Source: an uncultured Eubacteriales bacterium (lineage in GTDB: Bacteria; Bacillota; Clostridia; TANB77; UBA1234). From it: a DNA stretch of 64,000 bases. The position numbers and the translations under genes are program-made. Location: positions 1 to 64,000 of the forward strand of contig CASDSU010000035.1 of NCBI GenBank assembly GCA_949283575.1, in the 5' to 3' direction. Shown piece after piece: positions 8,912 to 16,758 of the stretch (the first letter of the stretch is position 1; every line of letters starts with the position of its first letter). The notes under the pieces were generated by a model, which was not told the DNA's origin, searched no databases, and saw only the letters and a list, made by a program, of their open reading frames with translations.

Positions 8912-10816
8912 ATGAATTATAGAATTGTAAATGGCGCGGTTTCATATGGTGCTGAAACAATATTAGAAGAAATAAATATAGAAATTAGAGAAAAAGAAAA
9001 AATCGCTATTGTTGGTCGTAATGGGTGTGGAAAGACTACTTTACTTAAAGCAATAGTTAATAATGAAATGTTAGAAGCTGGGGTTGGGGAAGAAAAATTT
9101 GGAGTATACAAGCAAGGAAATCCTTCAATTGGTTATTTGAAACAGATTGATTTTGAAGATGAAACAAGAACTTTACTTGATGAAATTTTAGAAGTGTATA
9201 AGCCTATAATCGAACTGGAAAATAAAATTGCTAGATTAGAAACAGAACTTAAAGAAAGTACAAATGAAGAGTTAATTAAGGCTTATACAACAGCTCGTGA
9301 TAGATATGAATTTTTAGACGGTTATACATATAAAAAAGAATATCAAACATTAATTAGAAAATTTGGTTTTACTGTTGAAGATGAAAAGAAAAGGATTAAT
9401 GAGTTTTCTGGTGGTCAAAAAACTAGAATTGCATTTATTAAGCTTTTGATTAGTAAACCAGATATTTTGCTTTTAGATGAACCTACAAACCATTTGGATA
9501 TAGATACTATTGAATGGTTGGAAGGATATTTAAAAAGTTATAATCGTGCTGTTGTAATTGTTTCTCATGATAGAATGTTTCTAAATAAAATTGTTGATAA
9601 AGTCTATGAAATTGAATATGCTGCAATTACTGGATATACTGGTAACTATAGCTCATATGAAGAGCAAAAGAAGGTTAATTATGAGAAGCAATTAAAAGAT
9701 TATGAATTTCAACAAAAAGAAATTAAGCGTTTAACAGCAATTGCTGATAGATTTAGATATAAGCCGACTAAAGCTAAGATGGCGCTTTCAAAATTAAAAC
9801 AAATTGAAAGAATGGTAAAAGTTGAAGAACCTAATCGCTATGATTTAAGAACATTTAGTACAAATTTTATTTTGAAAAAACAAAGCGGAAAAAATGTCTT
9901 AAATGTAAATCAGCTTGAAATTGGATATGATAAGCCGATTGCTACGATTAATTTTAATTTGTTAAAAGGACAAAAGCTTGGTGTCATTGGTGCCAATGGA
10001 ATTGGAAAATCTACATTTTTGAAAACGTTAATGAGTAAGGTTGAACCTATATCTGGAGATTTTGAATTTGGATATAATGTAGAAAAACAATATTTTGATC
10101 AAGAGTTAGCCTTTATTAATTCTTCGAGAACTATATTTGATGAATTTAGTTCGACGTTTCCAGCTTTAAATGACAGAGAAGTTAGGAATGCATTAGCATC
10201 ATTTTTATTTACAGGTGAAGACGTTTTTAAAGAGATTTCTGTTTTGTCTGGTGGAGAAAAAGTTCGTTTGAAACTTTGTGAAATATTTAAGAAAGGTCCT
10301 AATTTATTATTATTAGATGAACCAACAAATCATATGGATATTTTAGGAAAAGAAAGTCTAGAGCGAATTTTAAATAAATACGAAGGAACATTAATTTTTG
10401 TGTCGCATGATAGATATTTTGTAAGTAAAATAGCTAATGCTTTGTTAATTTTTGAAAATGATAAAGTTACATTTTTTGATGGGAATTATGATGAATACAT
10501 AGAAAAAAGGCAAAAAGAAAGCGAAGAAGAGCAGATTGTAATTGTTAAAGAAAAAGAAAAGAAGAATGCTACAAATTCTTATTTTGTGAATAAAGAAAAA
10601 AATAAAATAAGTAATAGAATTAAAAAAATTGAAGAACAAATAAATCAAAAAGAGCTTGAAATATCTAAATTTGAACAGGAAATGCAAAAGGAAGAGGTGT
10701 GCGCAGATTATATAAAACTTTCGGAAATTCAAGATAAGATTAAAAGTGTAACAAATGAAATTAAATTATTGATGACTGAATGGGAAGAACTTGGAACGAA
10801 ACTTGAGTCAATGTAA
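8912..10816 (+). CDS. ABC-F family ATPase (ribosome-associated type)
   Basis: 634 residues with two ABC cassettes and no membrane segments. Cassette 1: Walker A GRNGCGKT (35-42), signature SGGQ (166-169), Walker B LLLDEPTNHLD. Cassette 2: Walker A GANGIGKS (from 360), LSGGEK, LLLDEPTNHMD. The cassettes are joined by a basic linker, and a lysine/glutamate-rich coiled coil fills the C-terminal 90 residues. ABC-F proteins bind the ribosomal E site and act as translation factors or antibiotic-protection proteins; the overall form (YdiF/Uup-like) favours a housekeeping factor. A GGAG about 11 bases upstream is the likely ribosome site. Confidence 0.92.
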   Translation: MNYRIVNGAVSYGAETILEEINIEIREKEKIAIVGRNGCGKTTLLKAIVNNEMLEAGVGEEKFGVYKQGNPSIGYLKQIDFEDETRTLLDEILEVYKPIIELENKIARLETELKESTNEELIKAYTTARDRYEFLDGYTYKKEYQTLIRKFGFTVEDEKKRINEFSGGQKTRIAFIKLLISKPDILLLDEPTNHLDIDTIEWLEGYLKSYNRAVVIVSHDRMFLNKIVDKVYEIEYAAITGYTGNYSSYEEQKKVNYEKQLKDYEFQQKEIKRLTAIADRFRYKPTKAKMALSKLKQIERMVKVEEPNRYDLRTFSTNFILKKQSGKNVLNVNQLEIGYDKPIATINFNLLKGQKLGVIGANGIGKSTFLKTLMSKVEPISGDFEFGYNVEKQYFDQELAFINSSRTIFDEFSSTFPALNDREVRNALASFLFTGEDVFKEISVLSGGEKVRLKLCEIFKKGPNLLLLDEPTNHMDILGKESLERILNKYEGTLIFVSHDRYFVSKIANALLIFENDKVTFFDGNYDEYIEKRQKESEEEQIVIVKEKEKKNATNSYFVNKEKNKISNRIKKIEEQINQKELEISKFEQEMQKEEVCADYIKLSEIQDKIKSVTNEIKLLMTEWEELGTKLESM

Positions 10817-10846
10817 GAAATTTTAAAGCACAAAGGAGAAATTGAT

Positions 10847-13800
10847 ATGTACGATGAAGTGTTATATAGCAATGGTGTAGATTTTTGTGAACAAATTTTA
10901 AAAAGATGGTTGAATGAGTGTAATGATGCATCAAATAATAGTGGTTATAAGGTATTCCTGCCTAAAATGAAATTTGTGAATTCGGAACTTGTTTTTGAGT
11001 TTCCTATTTATACATTAGAAACGGATAAGTGTCCAATTGTTGGAACGGTATTTTTTAACGTGACAAAAAATTCCGTAGAAAAAATTGAAAGAGTTTTTTC
11101 TGGTTTATTTACTGGAGCAGTTATTACTTTCAAATTAGAAGAGTATAAAGAAAGTGTAATGTTTGTTTATAAAGTTTTATGCTTAGAACTTAATAAAGAA
11201 AGAGTAAAAGAATATTCAGAGCAAGTTGAAAAGCATAAAATAGAAATAGAGAAGAATATTGATGCATATTATGAAACTTTGAAAAAAATACCATACAAAG
11301 AGTTTCAAATGAATCAACCTGCAACTAATAATGGTGTAATTTTAAAAGAAGCTCAATCAAACATGAATACTCTTTCAAATCCAGTTGTTGATGAAGTGAC
11401 TAATACGAATGTAGTTATAACTGATGAAATAAAAAAATCAGATGATGAAAAAGAAAAATCAGATTTTGATATTGCAATGGAACTTATGGAAGGAAATAAT
11501 TCGGAAAATAAAAAGTATGATTTTGAATGGAAAGCAAAGTATAATTTAAAATATATAACTGATGATGCTTTAGAACTTGCATACATGCTTATAAAACGTG
11601 GAGCTATAGAGTTGAAACCAGGAGTGCGAGATAAAAAAGATAAAAACGGAAATCTTTATAAAGAGAAATTTGTTACTATTGTATCTGATATAAAAAGTTT
11701 TTGTAATTATGACGATTCAACTATTTCAAGTGTAAAATATCAAATTGAAAAAGAGGAAAAAAATAATATTCCTTCTACAATTTTTAATGCGAAACGCGGA
11801 GAATGGACTATATATGGAAATCCTTATCTTGATAATATTTGTTTTGGATGTAAATTTAAAGCTTGTCCAAAACAGTTGGCAGCATATATTTTGTATCTGA
11901 AAAATACTGGTAAGTTGCAACAAACGCTTGAAGAACGAAAAGCATTTAGAGAAAACGAAAATATAGATGACTCTATTTTTAGATTTAAATGGGAAGTTGA
12001 AGATGGGTTAAAATTTGTAGATGAGAAAATTTATAATTATGCAGAAGAGTTGGTAAAAAGAAATATCGTATATGTTGAAACAGTATTAAGTGAAGATAAA
12101 TGGGTAAAGATTAGATCAACATTAGGTTGTAATGATTTTAAACTTATGAATGCAGATATAGAACAATTGCCTGCAAATGCAGATTTTAAGGATCTCAGAG
12201 GAAGTTTAACTCGTACTGTATCTAAAGAAAAGTTTACTTTTTGTGATGCATATACTTGCTTACTAAATTCATGTCCTTATGAAATCGCGGGATACATATA
12301 CTATTTGAGAAAATCAGGTAAGGAAAGTCAGATTGCTGAAGACAGAAAGTATTATGCTGAAAACAGAGAAGCGATAGAAAAAACAATTGAAGAAAATAAG
12401 CAAAAAGCGTTACAAAAATTAGCTAATAATAAAAATGATATTTTAGATAGATTTGGTGAATTTAAAAATACAATAAATAATATCAAGAATCTTGTAGATG
12501 ATTTAGCTAATAAACAACTTTCGAATTTACATTGTTTTATTCAAAATGATGATGAAGTTGAAAGAAATAAATTTGTAAATAAGATTTATAATGAATTAAA
12601 AAATTCTGAAAAAATAATAAAAAGCCGTAGTATGTCACTTCAGAATTTTATGGCGATGAATGTGCATTTTTCTAGTGCAGGATATACAGATAAAGATGGA
12701 AATCCTTTGAGAGATAGAAAGGGAGTTGGGTATATAGCTGATCACCAGGTTAAGTATACGTTGGCTGAAGAAAAAACACTATATATTTTAGATAATGTTA
12801 CAGAATTTATTAATGACTATAATGTGTATAAGAGAATTGTTCCCGATTATGCAAGTGCTGAAATTAAAAAGAAACAATTTGAACATGTTATAAGATTATT
12901 AACTAACATTTCTGATTCATATATTATTATTCTAGGAACTGAAAAAGAAAAGGATGCGCTACTTGGTTTAGATTCAAGGCTTCAATATATATACAATAAC
13001 TCAATATATGTAATTCCGGGCTTATCGATTGATGAAATGTTTGAGTTATATAAAGCCAATATTAAGGCTGAATTATTAAATGAATTTAGAGCTAATGAAG
13101 AAACTTATAAAACACAATTTTCTGACTATGTTAGCTTAAATAAGGCCTTTATTCCTTTTTCAGATCGAGAATTAGTTGACTATTTGACAATGTATACGAA
13201 TTCGAAAGATGGTATAGAGTTTCCTGAAAATGTGTATAAGAAGGAAACTATAGATGAAGCCTTGAAAAATATTATTGGTCTTCAATCTGTTAAAGATAAA
13301 TTAAAAGAATTTGAAAAATATATGTTATTCCAAGTTAAAGCTAAGGCAAATGATATGAAGCTTAAGTCTTCGAATATGCATATGATATTTACGGGAAATC
13401 CTGGTACTGGTAAGACTACATTTGCAAGAATTATGGCTAAAATGTTGTATGACTTAGGAATGCTTAAAGAAAATAAATTAATTGAGGTTGAGAAAAAGGA
13501 TTTAATTGCTTCATATATTGGACAAACTGCTCCGAAAACTGCTGAAGTTATTGAAAAAGCTATTGGTGGTGTTTTATTTATTGATGAAGCTTATAGTTTG
13601 ACAGAAGGAAAGGATTCTTTTGGAAAAGAAGCAATTGCTACTTTAATAAAAGCAATGGAAGATAGAAAAGACGAACTTGTTGTTATATTTGCAGGATATA
13701 AAGATGAGATGAAAACTTTTATGGACAGTAATGCAGGTATAACATCAAGAATTGGATATACTTTTGATTTTCCAGATTATACACCTGAAGAACTTGTACA

Positions 13801-16264
13801 AATTTTTAATGTTAAAATGAAAAACATGGGTTTTGAAATTGAAGAGGGTGTTGAACCGCAAATTGAAAATATTTGTGAATATTTTTCAAAGAGAAAATCA
13901 TTTGGAAATGGTAGATTTATAGATAAACTTACACAAGAAATGATAATAAAGCATTCGACGCATGATAATGCAGATATAAGAAAAATTACAGTCGCAGATA
14001 TTCCATCAATGGAGCAATTAACGAATTCTTCTAATAACAATGATAAATCAGCACTGGAAGAACAACTTAAAAATATTGTGGGAATGCAATCTGTTAAAGA
14101 CAAATTAGTTAATTTTGAAAAATATGTTTCATTTAACAAAAAGGCTGTTACAGCTGGACTAGATATTCCAAATTCTAATATGCACATGATATTTACCGGA
14201 AATCCTGGAACAGGAAAGACTGCAATAGCAAGGATTGTAGCTAAGATGCTTTTTGATATTGGTGTAATTTACGAAAATAAATTAATTGAGGTTGAAAGAA
14301 AAGATTTAGTAGCAGAATATACAGGACAAACAGCGCCAAAAACAAATGAAGTAATAGAAAAAGCAATGGGTGGAGTTTTGTTTATTGATGAAGCGTACAC
14401 TTTGGCTGAAGGAAAAGATTCTTTTGGTAAAGAAGCAATTGCGACGTTAATAAAAGCAATGGAAGATCATAAAGGTGAATTCATCGTGATTTTCGCAGGA
14501 TATAGAGATGAAATGAAAACGTTTACTGATATGAATCCTGGAATTGCTTCTAGAATAGGATATACATTTGAGTTCCCGGATTATACAGCAGATGAACTTT
14601 TAGAAATATTCAAAAGAAAAGTTGCAAAGATTGGCTTTGAACTTGCAGATGATATTGAAAAAGAAATTATAAATATTTGCAGTTATTTTTCAAAAAGAAA
14701 AGCTTTTGGAAATGGTAGATTTGTAGATAAATTAATTCAAGAGACTATAATGAAACATACAATGAATGAAAGTGACAATATAAAATTAATTACTCTTCAA
14801 GATATTCCATCAATAGTTGAATTAAATCCAAGCAGAAAAGATTTAAATTATGATGCACAGGAGTTTTTGAATAAGATTGTTGGAATGAAAGATTTAAAAG
14901 ATAAAATTGCTGAATTTACAGAGTACATAAAATTTGTTAAAGATGCTCAAAATGCTGGAATAAATATTCCAAATCAAAATATGCATATGATATTTACTGG
15001 AAATCCAGGAACAGGAAAGACCACTGTTGCAAGGGTTATGGCAAAATTGTTGTTTGATATGGGATTTATTCATGAAAATAAATTGGTTGAAGTTGAAAGA
15101 AAAGATTTGGTTGCTGGATATATTGGTCAAACTGCGCCAAAGACAAATGAAGTAATAGAAAAAGCAATGGGTGGAGTTTTGTTTATAGATGAAGCTTATA
15201 CACTTGCTCAAGGAAGAAAATCTGGAAATGATTATGGTGCTGAAGCAATTGCAACTTTAATAAAAGCAATGGAAGATCATAAAGGTGAATTTATAGTGAT
15301 TTTTGCAGGATACAAAGATGAGATGAGAGACTTTTTAGATATTAATCCTGGAATAGCTTCAAGAGTGGGATATACTTTTGATTTTCCAGATTATTCTGCA
15401 GCTGAACTTGAAGAAATTTTTTATAGAAAAATTGAAGATTTAGGATTCAAAGTTGATGAAGGGGCAAAGAAAAATGTGCATGATGTGATGCAATATTTTG
15501 AAAGCGTTGAAAATATTGGAAATGGTAGATTTGCAGATAAGGTTGTTCAAAACACATTACTTAAAATGGCGAAAAATAGAGTCGAGAACTTGGCTATGGT
15601 GATGCCACAGCATATACCAACGATTAATGAAATGACAACTACGTTGCTTGGTGGGGAAGATATGATAGATCCATCTAAGATTAGCAAAGAGTCATTACGA
15701 AAGACAGCAGCGCATGAAACAGGACATGCTGCTATTGCTTATTTATTGAATAAGAAACCTGGAATAAAGAAAATAACTGTAAAAGCAGAAGGAAGAGGTT
15801 CACTAGGATATGTTGATTTTTCAAACCGAGATGAAAATGTTATATACAGAAAAAGTTATATGTTAAATAAAATAAAGGAACTAATGGCAGGTATGGTCGC
15901 AGAGGATGTTTATTTTGGAGAACATGCAAATGGCAATACTTCTGATTTGGAGAGAGCAACTGCGTATACATATAACATGGTAACTAAATTTGGCATGTCT
16001 GATCTTGGTTATGTTCAAATAAGAAGACCAGAAGGTGAAGTAGCAAAAATGGTTTTTGAAGAACAAAATAGAATACTAAAACAATGTTATGATGAAACTT
16101 TTGAATTAATAAAACAAAATAAATCAAAGATGGATAATGTTGTAGAATATTTATTAATTCATGGAGATATGACTGAAGAGGAATTTATACGAGAATTCGA
16201 AAGAAATAGTGAATCAGATACTTTGAATACAGAATTAGTTGATACAAATAATTGGCATGCATAA
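10847..16264 (+). CDS. Giant triple-AAA (SpoVK/CbxX type) protein with C-terminal M41-like protease domain
   Basis: 1805 residues, ATG 10847 eight bases after AAAGGAG. Order: an N-terminal domain (1-190); a duplicated module of about 130 residues with a Cys triad each (Cys332/335/340 and Cys466/471/476, each followed by a YILYL/YIYYL helix); a divergent ATPase-like region (about 545-760) without a clear Walker A; then three close copies of a CbxX/SpoVK AAA domain with Walker A GNPGTGKT at 850, 1118 and 1385, and Walker B VLFIDEAY in each. Last comes a zinc-protease domain with HETGH (1623-1627) and SDLERAT with Asp1700, matching the FtsH/M41 metal ligands, followed by the FtsH-like NMVTKFGMS. 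No membrane segment is seen, unlike FtsH. I infer an ATP-driven cytoplasmic remodelling or proteolysis machine on one chain; the substrate is unknown. Confidence 0.85.
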   Translation: MYDEVLYSNGVDFCEQILKRWLNECNDASNNSGYKVFLPKMKFVNSELVFEFPIYTLETDKCPIVGTVFFNVTKNSVEKIERVFSGLFTGAVITFKLEEYKESVMFVYKVLCLELNKERVKEYSEQVEKHKIEIEKNIDAYYETLKKIPYKEFQMNQPATNNGVILKEAQSNMNTLSNPVVDEVTNTNVVITDEIKKSDDEKEKSDFDIAMELMEGNNSENKKYDFEWKAKYNLKYITDDALELAYMLIKRGAIELKPGVRDKKDKNGNLYKEKFVTIVSDIKSFCNYDDSTISSVKYQIEKEEKNNIPSTIFNAKRGEWTIYGNPYLDNICFGCKFKACPKQLAAYILYLKNTGKLQQTLEERKAFRENENIDDSIFRFKWEVEDGLKFVDEKIYNYAEELVKRNIVYVETVLSEDKWVKIRSTLGCNDFKLMNADIEQLPANADFKDLRGSLTRTVSKEKFTFCDAYTCLLNSCPYEIAGYIYYLRKSGKESQIAEDRKYYAENREAIEKTIEENKQKALQKLANNKNDILDRFGEFKNTINNIKNLVDDLANKQLSNLHCFIQNDDEVERNKFVNKIYNELKNSEKIIKSRSMSLQNFMAMNVHFSSAGYTDKDGNPLRDRKGVGYIADHQVKYTLAEEKTLYILDNVTEFINDYNVYKRIVPDYASAEIKKKQFEHVIRLLTNISDSYIIILGTEKEKDALLGLDSRLQYIYNNSIYVIPGLSIDEMFELYKANIKAELLNEFRANEETYKTQFSDYVSLNKAFIPFSDRELVDYLTMYTNSKDGIEFPENVYKKETIDEALKNIIGLQSVKDKLKEFEKYMLFQVKAKANDMKLKSSNMHMIFTGNPGTGKTTFARIMAKMLYDLGMLKENKLIEVEKKDLIASYIGQTAPKTAEVIEKAIGGVLFIDEAYSLTEGKDSFGKEAIATLIKAMEDRKDELVVIFAGYKDEMKTFMDSNAGITSRIGYTFDFPDYTPEELVQIFNVKMKNMGFEIEEGVEPQIENICEYFSKRKSFGNGRFIDKLTQEMIIKHSTHDNADIRKITVADIPSMEQLTNSSNNNDKSALEEQLKNIVGMQSVKDKLVNFEKYVSFNKKAVTAGLDIPNSNMHMIFTGNPGTGKTAIARIVAKMLFDIGVIYENKLIEVERKDLVAEYTGQTAPKTNEVIEKAMGGVLFIDEAYTLAEGKDSFGKEAIATLIKAMEDHKGEFIVIFAGYRDEMKTFTDMNPGIASRIGYTFEFPDYTADELLEIFKRKVAKIGFELADDIEKEIINICSYFSKRKAFGNGRFVDKLIQETIMKHTMNESDNIKLITLQDIPSIVELNPSRKDLNYDAQEFLNKIVGMKDLKDKIAEFTEYIKFVKDAQNAGINIPNQNMHMIFTGNPGTGKTTVARVMAKLLFDMGFIHENKLVEVERKDLVAGYIGQTAPKTNEVIEKAMGGVLFIDEAYTLAQGRKSGNDYGAEAIATLIKAMEDHKGEFIVIFAGYKDEMRDFLDINPGIASRVGYTFDFPDYSAAELEEIFYRKIEDLGFKVDEGAKKNVHDVMQYFESVENIGNGRFADKVVQNTLLKMAKNRVENLAMVMPQHIPTINEMTTTLLGGEDMIDPSKISKESLRKTAAHETGHAAIAYLLNKKPGIKKITVKAEGRGSLGYVDFSNRDENVIYRKSYMLNKIKELMAGMVAEDVYFGEHANGNTSDLERATAYTYNMVTKFGMSDLGYVQIRRPEGEVAKMVFEEQNRILKQCYDETFELIKQNKSKMDNVVEYLLIHGDMTEEEFIREFERNSESDTLNTELVDTNNWHA

Positions 16265-16281: not shown

Positions 16282-16758
16282 ATGGAAGAAAAAACAAACG
16301 TAATGAGGATTTTGGATAAAAGCAAAATTAAATATAATCACTATTCGTATGTAGGGACTAATGCAGTGAGTGGAGTAGAAGTAGCAAGTGTTTTAAATCA
16401 GGACCCTAATCATGTTTTTAAAACTCTTGTAACAACGGGTAAAACAAATACTCATTACGTTTTTGTTATTCCAGTTAACAAAGAATTAGATTTGAAAAAA
16501 GCTGCTAAAAGTGTAGGTGAAAAAAACATTGAAATGTTGAAACAAAAAGATTTATTGCCGCTTACAGGATATATTCATGGTGGGTGTTCGCCAATAGGAA
16601 TGAAAAAGTTTTTTAGAACGGTTATAGATAAAAGTTCTGAAAATTATGAAACAATAATATTTAGTGCTGGTAAAATTGGATACCAGGTTGAAGTAAGGAT
16701 GGCGGACTTAAGTAAAATAATACGATTTGAAATCGCTGATGTAATAACTAATATATAA
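16282..16758 (+). CDS. ybaK: YbaK/EbsC family Cys-tRNA(Pro)/Cys-tRNA(Cys) deacylase
   Basis: 158 residues from ATG 16282 behind AAGGAG; an earlier in-frame ATG at 16252 overlaps the giant gene. The sequence has the YbaK core: the conserved lysine strand HVFKTLVT, YVFVIPVNKELDLKKAAK, and the GGCSPIGMKK loop. Family members hydrolyse mischarged Cys-tRNA(Pro), removing cysteine wrongly attached by ProRS. It is cytoplasmic and of usual length. It lies directly downstream of the AAA/M41 gene but need not be functionally linked. Confidence 0.9.
   Translation: MEEKTNVMRILDKSKIKYNHYSYVGTNAVSGVEVASVLNQDPNHVFKTLVTTGKTNTHYVFVIPVNKELDLKKAAKSVGEKNIEMLKQKDLLPLTGYIHGGCSPIGMKKFFRTVIDKSSENYETIIFSAGKIGYQVEVRMADLSKIIRFEIADVITNI

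Follow-up and report, generated by a model that had tools for sequence, protein, structure and literature searches.

Gene and genomic context

The window analyzed here is a 64,000-nt stretch of DNA from a 1.8-Mb low-GC gut Clostridia genome (G000). It carries a gene for an 1805-aa protein that comprises, from the N to the C terminus, an N-terminal region, two Cys4 modules, a degenerate AAA domain, three AAA modules, and a peptidase M41 domain, a combination we hereafter refer to as AAA-M41. A preliminary description of this DNA had proposed a single reading frame at this position, and we found the frame open and preceded by a ribosome-binding site (Table 1).

Table 1. Features of the AAA-M41 locus, with positions numbered from the first nucleotide of the window
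Feature	Position	Strand	Basis
ABC-F ATPase gene, upstream, 30-nt gap to protease gene	8912..10816	+	Profile/neighborhood reading
Ribosome-binding site AAAGGAG, 8 nt 5′ of ATG	10832..10838	+	Sequence
Whole AAA-M41 gene, 1805 aa	10847..16264	+	ORF list, Pfam, NCBIfam
Variable N-terminal region, ~residues 1-205	10847..11461	+	Missing in many homologs, dN/dS 0.27
Cys4 module 1, residues 215-377 (C286, C332, C335, C340)	11489..11977	+	Alignment
Cys4 module 2, residues 378-520 (C428, C466, C471, C476)	11978..12406	+	Alignment, AF2 model
Degenerate CbbX-fold AAA domain, residues 543-799	12473..13243	+	AF2 model, structure search, motif scan
AAA module 1, residues 801-1068	13247..14050	+	Pfam, NCBIfam, motif scan
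AAA module 2, residues 1069-1335, every motif intact	14051..14851	+	Pfam, NCBIfam, motif scan
AAA module 3, residues 1336-1600, every motif intact	14852..15646	+	Pfam, NCBIfam, motif scan
Peptidase M41 domain, residues 1612-1780	15680..16186	+	Pfam, 2.7e-31
HETGH, predicted zinc-binding, residues 1623-1627	15713..15727	+	ORF translation, alignment
Asp1700 in GNTSDLERAT, expected third zinc ligand	15944..15946	+	Invariant column
Aminoacyl-tRNA editing (YbaK-like) gene, downstream	16283..16758	+	Likely start ATG 16283, own AAGAAGGAG

The immediate neighbors of the gene are housekeeping-like. The order ABC-F then AAA-M41 is shared only with a relative whose protein is 88% identical (G005), and the ABC-F/YbaK context occurs outside G000 only in this close relative. 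A neighborhood survey of family members found no operon partner conserved across lineages, and the neighborhoods point to no client.

We considered the possibility that the long frame arose by mis-assembly or as a gene-fusion artifact; a mis-joining of genes was one of the results that, by the preliminary description, would overturn its reading. As the same fused frame is present in separate assemblies (L035, L036, L037, G004, G061, G076, G081, G008, G064, G630, and the g145 genomes), we rejected this explanation. Compared with the G005 ortholog, the gene has a dN/dS of 0.09 overall, indicating purifying selection, with values of 0.015-0.045 for the AAA modules, 0.08 for the M41 domain, and 0.08 for the Cys modules; the N-terminal 214 residues are the fastest-evolving part (0.27). 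The low dN/dS in each functional part shows that all of them, the protease included, are maintained. No membrane helix is indicated in the protein, in agreement with the preliminary description, and since the maximum 19-residue hydropathy is only 1.21, the protein is probably soluble.

AAA modules and M41 protease domain

SpoVK, CbbX, and EccA form a clade sister to FtsH; its characterized members work as dedicated chaperones, and a survey of the clade found no evidence of peptidase fusions or associations (Delerue et al., PMC10659427). In the 1805-aa protein, Pfam detected three AAA domains (7.7e-55) and three AAA_lid_6 domains. The AAA modules exceeded the NCBIfam cut-offs for SpoVK (725 bits vs. 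423), CbbX (627 vs. 459), and EccA (613 vs. 467), the bit scores being sums over the three modules, and together with AAA_lid_6 these scores place the modules in the clade.

The features given for the clade are GY at sensor-1, an Asn that precedes the first Arg finger by four residues, and a second Arg finger (PMC10659427). The GY signature is present, as FAGY, in all three AAA modules. The N(P/A)GI(A/T)SR segment has its Asn six residues before the invariant Arg, a candidate finger residue. A motif scan located Walker A at residues 850, 1118, and 1385 and VLFIDEA in each module, as previously described. In module 1, Walker A at 850 is followed by the pore loop YIGQTAPKT at 890, Walker B at 909, FAGY (sensor-1), NAGITSR, and GNGRF (sensor-2). 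All three modules, which are 58-70% identical to one another, keep both Walker motifs, the pore loop with its Tyr, sensor-1 FAGY, N.GI.SR, and GNGRF with its sensor-2 Arg.

The M41 domain scores 109.4 bits against a curated Pfam cut-off of 29.9 and is thus an M41 member, with homologs reaching 70-130 bits; the cut-off is exceeded by the 1805-aa protein, eight members from the order and class, and the member on a putative viral contig. The predicted zinc ligands H1623, E1624, H1627, and D1700 are complete, and their columns are invariant in a 20-member alignment, while the Thr of HETGH varies. These are the residues that the preliminary description had picked out, and their loss in homologs, which it had held to be decisive against its reading, is seen in none of the aligned members. 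In the M41 tree, the M41 copies of the family form one clade (support 0.979), which makes a single origin likely; on this sequence evidence, the CbbX/SpoVK-M41 fusion probably arose once. In the family, 235-250 residues separate the last Walker A from HExxH, vs. 221-223 in FtsH, a similarity suggesting that the family protease is placed as that of FtsH. Intact Tyr-pore-loop motors and an intact M41 domain directly behind the last lid are the parts that an ATP-driven threading protease requires.

Profile searches, which had been proposed as a check, thus identified the AAA modules as SpoVK/CbbX type and detected the M41 domain; with the zinc ligands and the hydropathy, they bear out the earlier claim of CbbX/SpoVK AAA modules and an intact M41 domain in one apparently soluble chain.

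Degenerate AAA domain and Cys4 modules

In an AF2 model of the N-terminal part (pLDDT 70.7, six sequences; moderate confidence), residues 543-799 matched CbbX (3syl_B) with Z 13.0 and 3.6 Å over 216 residues at 11% identity, and the next non-CbbX entry had Z 9.7. The motif scan found no catalytic AAA motifs in this segment, including no recognizable Walker A. On the basis of the model, we assign residues 543-799 as a fourth, degenerate CbbX-fold AAA domain. The preliminary description had counted three CbxX/SpoVK modules; these three are intact, but it missed the degenerate one.

It had likewise noted two modules with a Cys triad each. Two modules do exist, but across 25 aligned copies, whose columns average 25% identity, there are just four invariant positions, each of them a Cys. 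Structure prediction, also proposed in advance, gave a folded module: the AF2 model of Cys4 module 2 (pLDDT 80, pTM 0.80) has an alpha/beta unit followed by helices. We found no Foldseek match to it at E≤0.001 in PDB or BFVD, no VIA match with Z≥2, and nothing significant in a PDB sequence-profile search; an absent fold match is no proof of a new fold. A weak hhalign match (probability 56%) links the module, including the Cys residues and RKYYEEH, to the TrpRS of two relatives. Thermotoga maritima TrpRS carries a [4Fe-4S] domain (PMC2954223) with a four-Cys site beside helices, like that of the module, but its spacing is C-x22-C-x6-C-x2-C instead of C-x37-C-x4-C-x4-C, and the likeness is marginal and unproven. 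The TrpRS likeness is therefore only suggestive of Fe-S, and we regard the Cys4 modules as candidate binders of zinc or Fe-S, zinc not being the sole candidate.

A search with the Cys4-module profile returned almost the same genomes as a profile of the N-terminal half. Two cases lie outside the AAA-M41 family, to which the module is otherwise confined: a 294-aa protein of G338 (L101:8128-9012), which has a Cys4 module without AAA or protease, and a weak profile match to an AAA protein in G193.

Distribution and architecture of the family

The same AAA-M41 layout is found in ~20 other genomes, which represent several clostridial families, and on a single IMG/VR contig of 467 kb. Searching 385 genomes of the order with the N-terminal-half profile (E≤0.001) matched 23, of which ~16 carry true family members; in the class, five other genomes matched, G630 and four of genus g145. 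The resulting frequencies, ~4% of the sampled genomes in the order and ~1% in the class sample, show that the family is rare and suggest an accessory role. In a sample of 398 genomes from the phylum, no other full-length AAA-M41 protein is among the matches listed, which are AAA matches only, and among those listed for phage and plasmid records none reaches over the M41 part.

Nearly all family members come from MAGs, and copies in G003, G325, and G048 are broken or divided between contigs. At one locus (L036:7398-17794), a full-length three-AAA protease precedes an isolated N-terminal domain of 279 aa and another copy, which is broken into ORFs of 718 and 577 aa; this is a tandem duplication that has undergone decay or a frameshift.

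The number of AAA modules ranges from one to three across the homologs, and the M41 domain is always single. Three AAA modules occur in the 1805-aa protein, G005, and L036; two in G004, G061, G076, G081, L037, and G630; and one in G008, G064, and g145. In the AAA tree, the protease-proximal modules of multi-AAA members from the order, including module 3 of the 1805-aa protein, cluster apart from the upstream modules, with the exception of one upstream-contig copy in G048 that clusters with the protease-proximal ones. All family modules are separate from the host genome's own SpoVK-like proteins. One of these, a 1298-aa protein (G000 C28, L050:7546-11442), has three tandem CbbX-type AAA modules like the 1805-aa protein but differs in lacking M41, in its zinc-ribbon-like N terminus, and in the position of its modules outside the family in the tree; it is conserved in several relatives.

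A sister group (L054:8437-10878, L055:4059-6509, and L222) has a Cys motif, a degenerate AAA domain, and a CbbX-type AAA module without M41. Its proteins in G080 and G052 are 813-816 aa long with no M41 found in the ORF, and the G193 ORF was read in part only. As no M41 was found in the ORFs of these three lineages, protease activity is apparently not essential to every relative. A family member in G045 (L045:204-5391) has Cys4 modules and one AAA module without M41, and directly 3′ of it lies a 666-aa protein in which a ClpA/B-type AAA (AAA_lid_9) is fused to M41, another unusual combination of AAA and protease alongside that of the family. The M41 domain of this protein clusters with that of a second M41 protein in the genome under study (G000 C31, L052:6517-7983; 488 aa, AAA and HEAGH), which is distinct from the genome's FtsH.

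The IMG/VR contig (IMGVR_UViG_3300021431_002946; L124) encodes a 1089-aa member with one Cys4 module, a degenerate AAA domain, one AAA module, and an M41 domain with HEIGH; in both the AAA and M41 trees, it clusters with the bacterial genus g145. The 467-kb contig is putatively viral, and two TerL profiles found no match on it. In a 20-kb sample of it, most ORFs had no match, and one homing endonuclease was present. We also noted a putative membrane ATPase in which a HINT (intein-like) domain is apparently inserted beside a Walker A (L124:4778-6016) and, on the minus strand, a 450-aa protein recalling RuvC/TnpB-type nucleases, with no Pfam or PHROG match (L124:15781-17133).

Relation to known proteins

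The protein resembles FtsH and the m- and i-AAA proteases (M41, TIGR01241) in having an M41 domain with HExGH and Asp directly behind an AAA lid at similar spacing. Unlike them, the family has CbbX/SpoVK-type AAA modules with AAA_lid_6, up to three plus one degenerate, a large Cys4 N-terminal part, and its own M41 clade, and it has no membrane helix. Against the FtsH equivalog (TIGR01241), the 1805-aa protein scores 120 bits vs. a cut-off of 600, with the M41 part only as the best stretch, and the hydropathy maximum of 1.21 indicates no N-terminal membrane anchor of the FtsH kind. It shares with CbbX (the red-type Rubisco activase), SpoVK, and EccA (TIGR02880, TIGR02881, and TIGR03922) the passed cut-offs and the GY sensor-1, and its degenerate AAA domain has, in the model, the CbbX fold. 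It departs from the single AAA domain and short N-terminal domain of SpoVK, a sporulation chaperone of spore-forming Firmicutes, having three AAA modules, M41, and Cys4 modules, and unlike the clade as reported (PMC10659427), it has an intact M41 domain fused to it. By its sequence, then, the protein is an M41 member outside the FtsH equivalog whose AAA modules belong with SpoVK/CbbX/EccA by score and GY.

The preliminary description knew of no system with this layout, and we found no description of a CbbX/SpoVK-M41 protein in the full-text literature, a body that largely leaves out subscription papers, where one is possible. Because the survey of Delerue et al. (PMC10659427), the only one published on this group of motors, found no peptidase associations in the clade, the AAA-M41 family is a counterexample to it.

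Proposed mechanism

With moderate confidence, we propose that the protein is a soluble, ATP-fueled metalloprotease in which CbbX/SpoVK-clade AAA+ motors take the place of the FtsH motor before an M41 ring. The M41 domains of solved structures (FtsH) are hexameric. Six chains would form a stack of rings, to which each AAA repeat contributes one, over a hexameric M41 chamber, with the inactive degenerate AAA as a non-hydrolyzing collar and the Cys4 modules as an entry or docking layer. The Cys4 modules and collar would dock one dedicated client, possibly gated by a metal or Fe-S state, and the AAA tiers would thread it into the M41 chamber for degradation or trimming. In this scheme, additional AAA copies would strengthen the pull or provide regulation; they would not be further subunits of one ring. 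A narrow target is the best reading.

The preliminary description had instead pictured a pseudo-hexamer, in which the AAA modules of one chain lie side by side in a ring that two chains close. Several similar AAA modules in one chain, four counting the degenerate one, would suit this arrangement. However, the variation from one to three (plus one degenerate) above a constant single M41 leaves no fixed ring stoichiometry, and a ring with only two M41 domains would be incompatible with the hexameric chamber of FtsH-type enzymes; we consider the pseudo-hexamer very unlikely, and the same AAA numbers, with a single M41 of a hexameric kind, make stacked homohexameric rings the likelier assembly. 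The protein might also be a CbbX/SpoVK-like chaperone or disassembly machine whose M41 domain is auxiliary, serving self-processing or slow quality control and not the main output. This would be in keeping with the chaperone role of characterized clade members (PMC10659427) and with the M41-free relatives bearing Cys motifs (G080, G052), but ligands invariant in 20/20 aligned fusions and purifying selection on M41 make it unlikely.

Bacteria and a giant phage might carry the protein as an anti-phage or conflict protease, which would account for the sporadic distribution of the family, its tandem and broken copies (L036, G325, G003), and the copy on the 467-kb contig that clusters with a distant bacterial genus. 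Yet no defense genes recur next to family members, the gene studied here has housekeeping-like neighbors, and the contig, with no match to two TerL profiles, is only putatively viral; we judge this role improbable. PADLOC matches reflect generic AAA similarity, and assignment to a defense system was rejected on that ground. A more elaborate form of the stacked-ring protease is doubtful, though conceivable: [4Fe-4S] clusters in the Cys4 modules would act as sensors of oxygen, iron, or redox state that permit the degradation of one dedicated client, in a family that arose by a one-time fusion, varied the number of its stacked tiers, and was disseminated in part by giant phages.

Implications

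The family supplies a compact, nearly family-restricted Cys4 domain for which no structural relative was detected in PDB or BFVD. Its members, with one, two, or three AAA modules over a single M41 domain, also constitute a natural series. The CbbX/SpoVK/EccA clade, defined as remodeling chaperones without peptidase partners, is here joined to a protease by fusion, and closely related motors can therefore test when remodeling becomes degradation.
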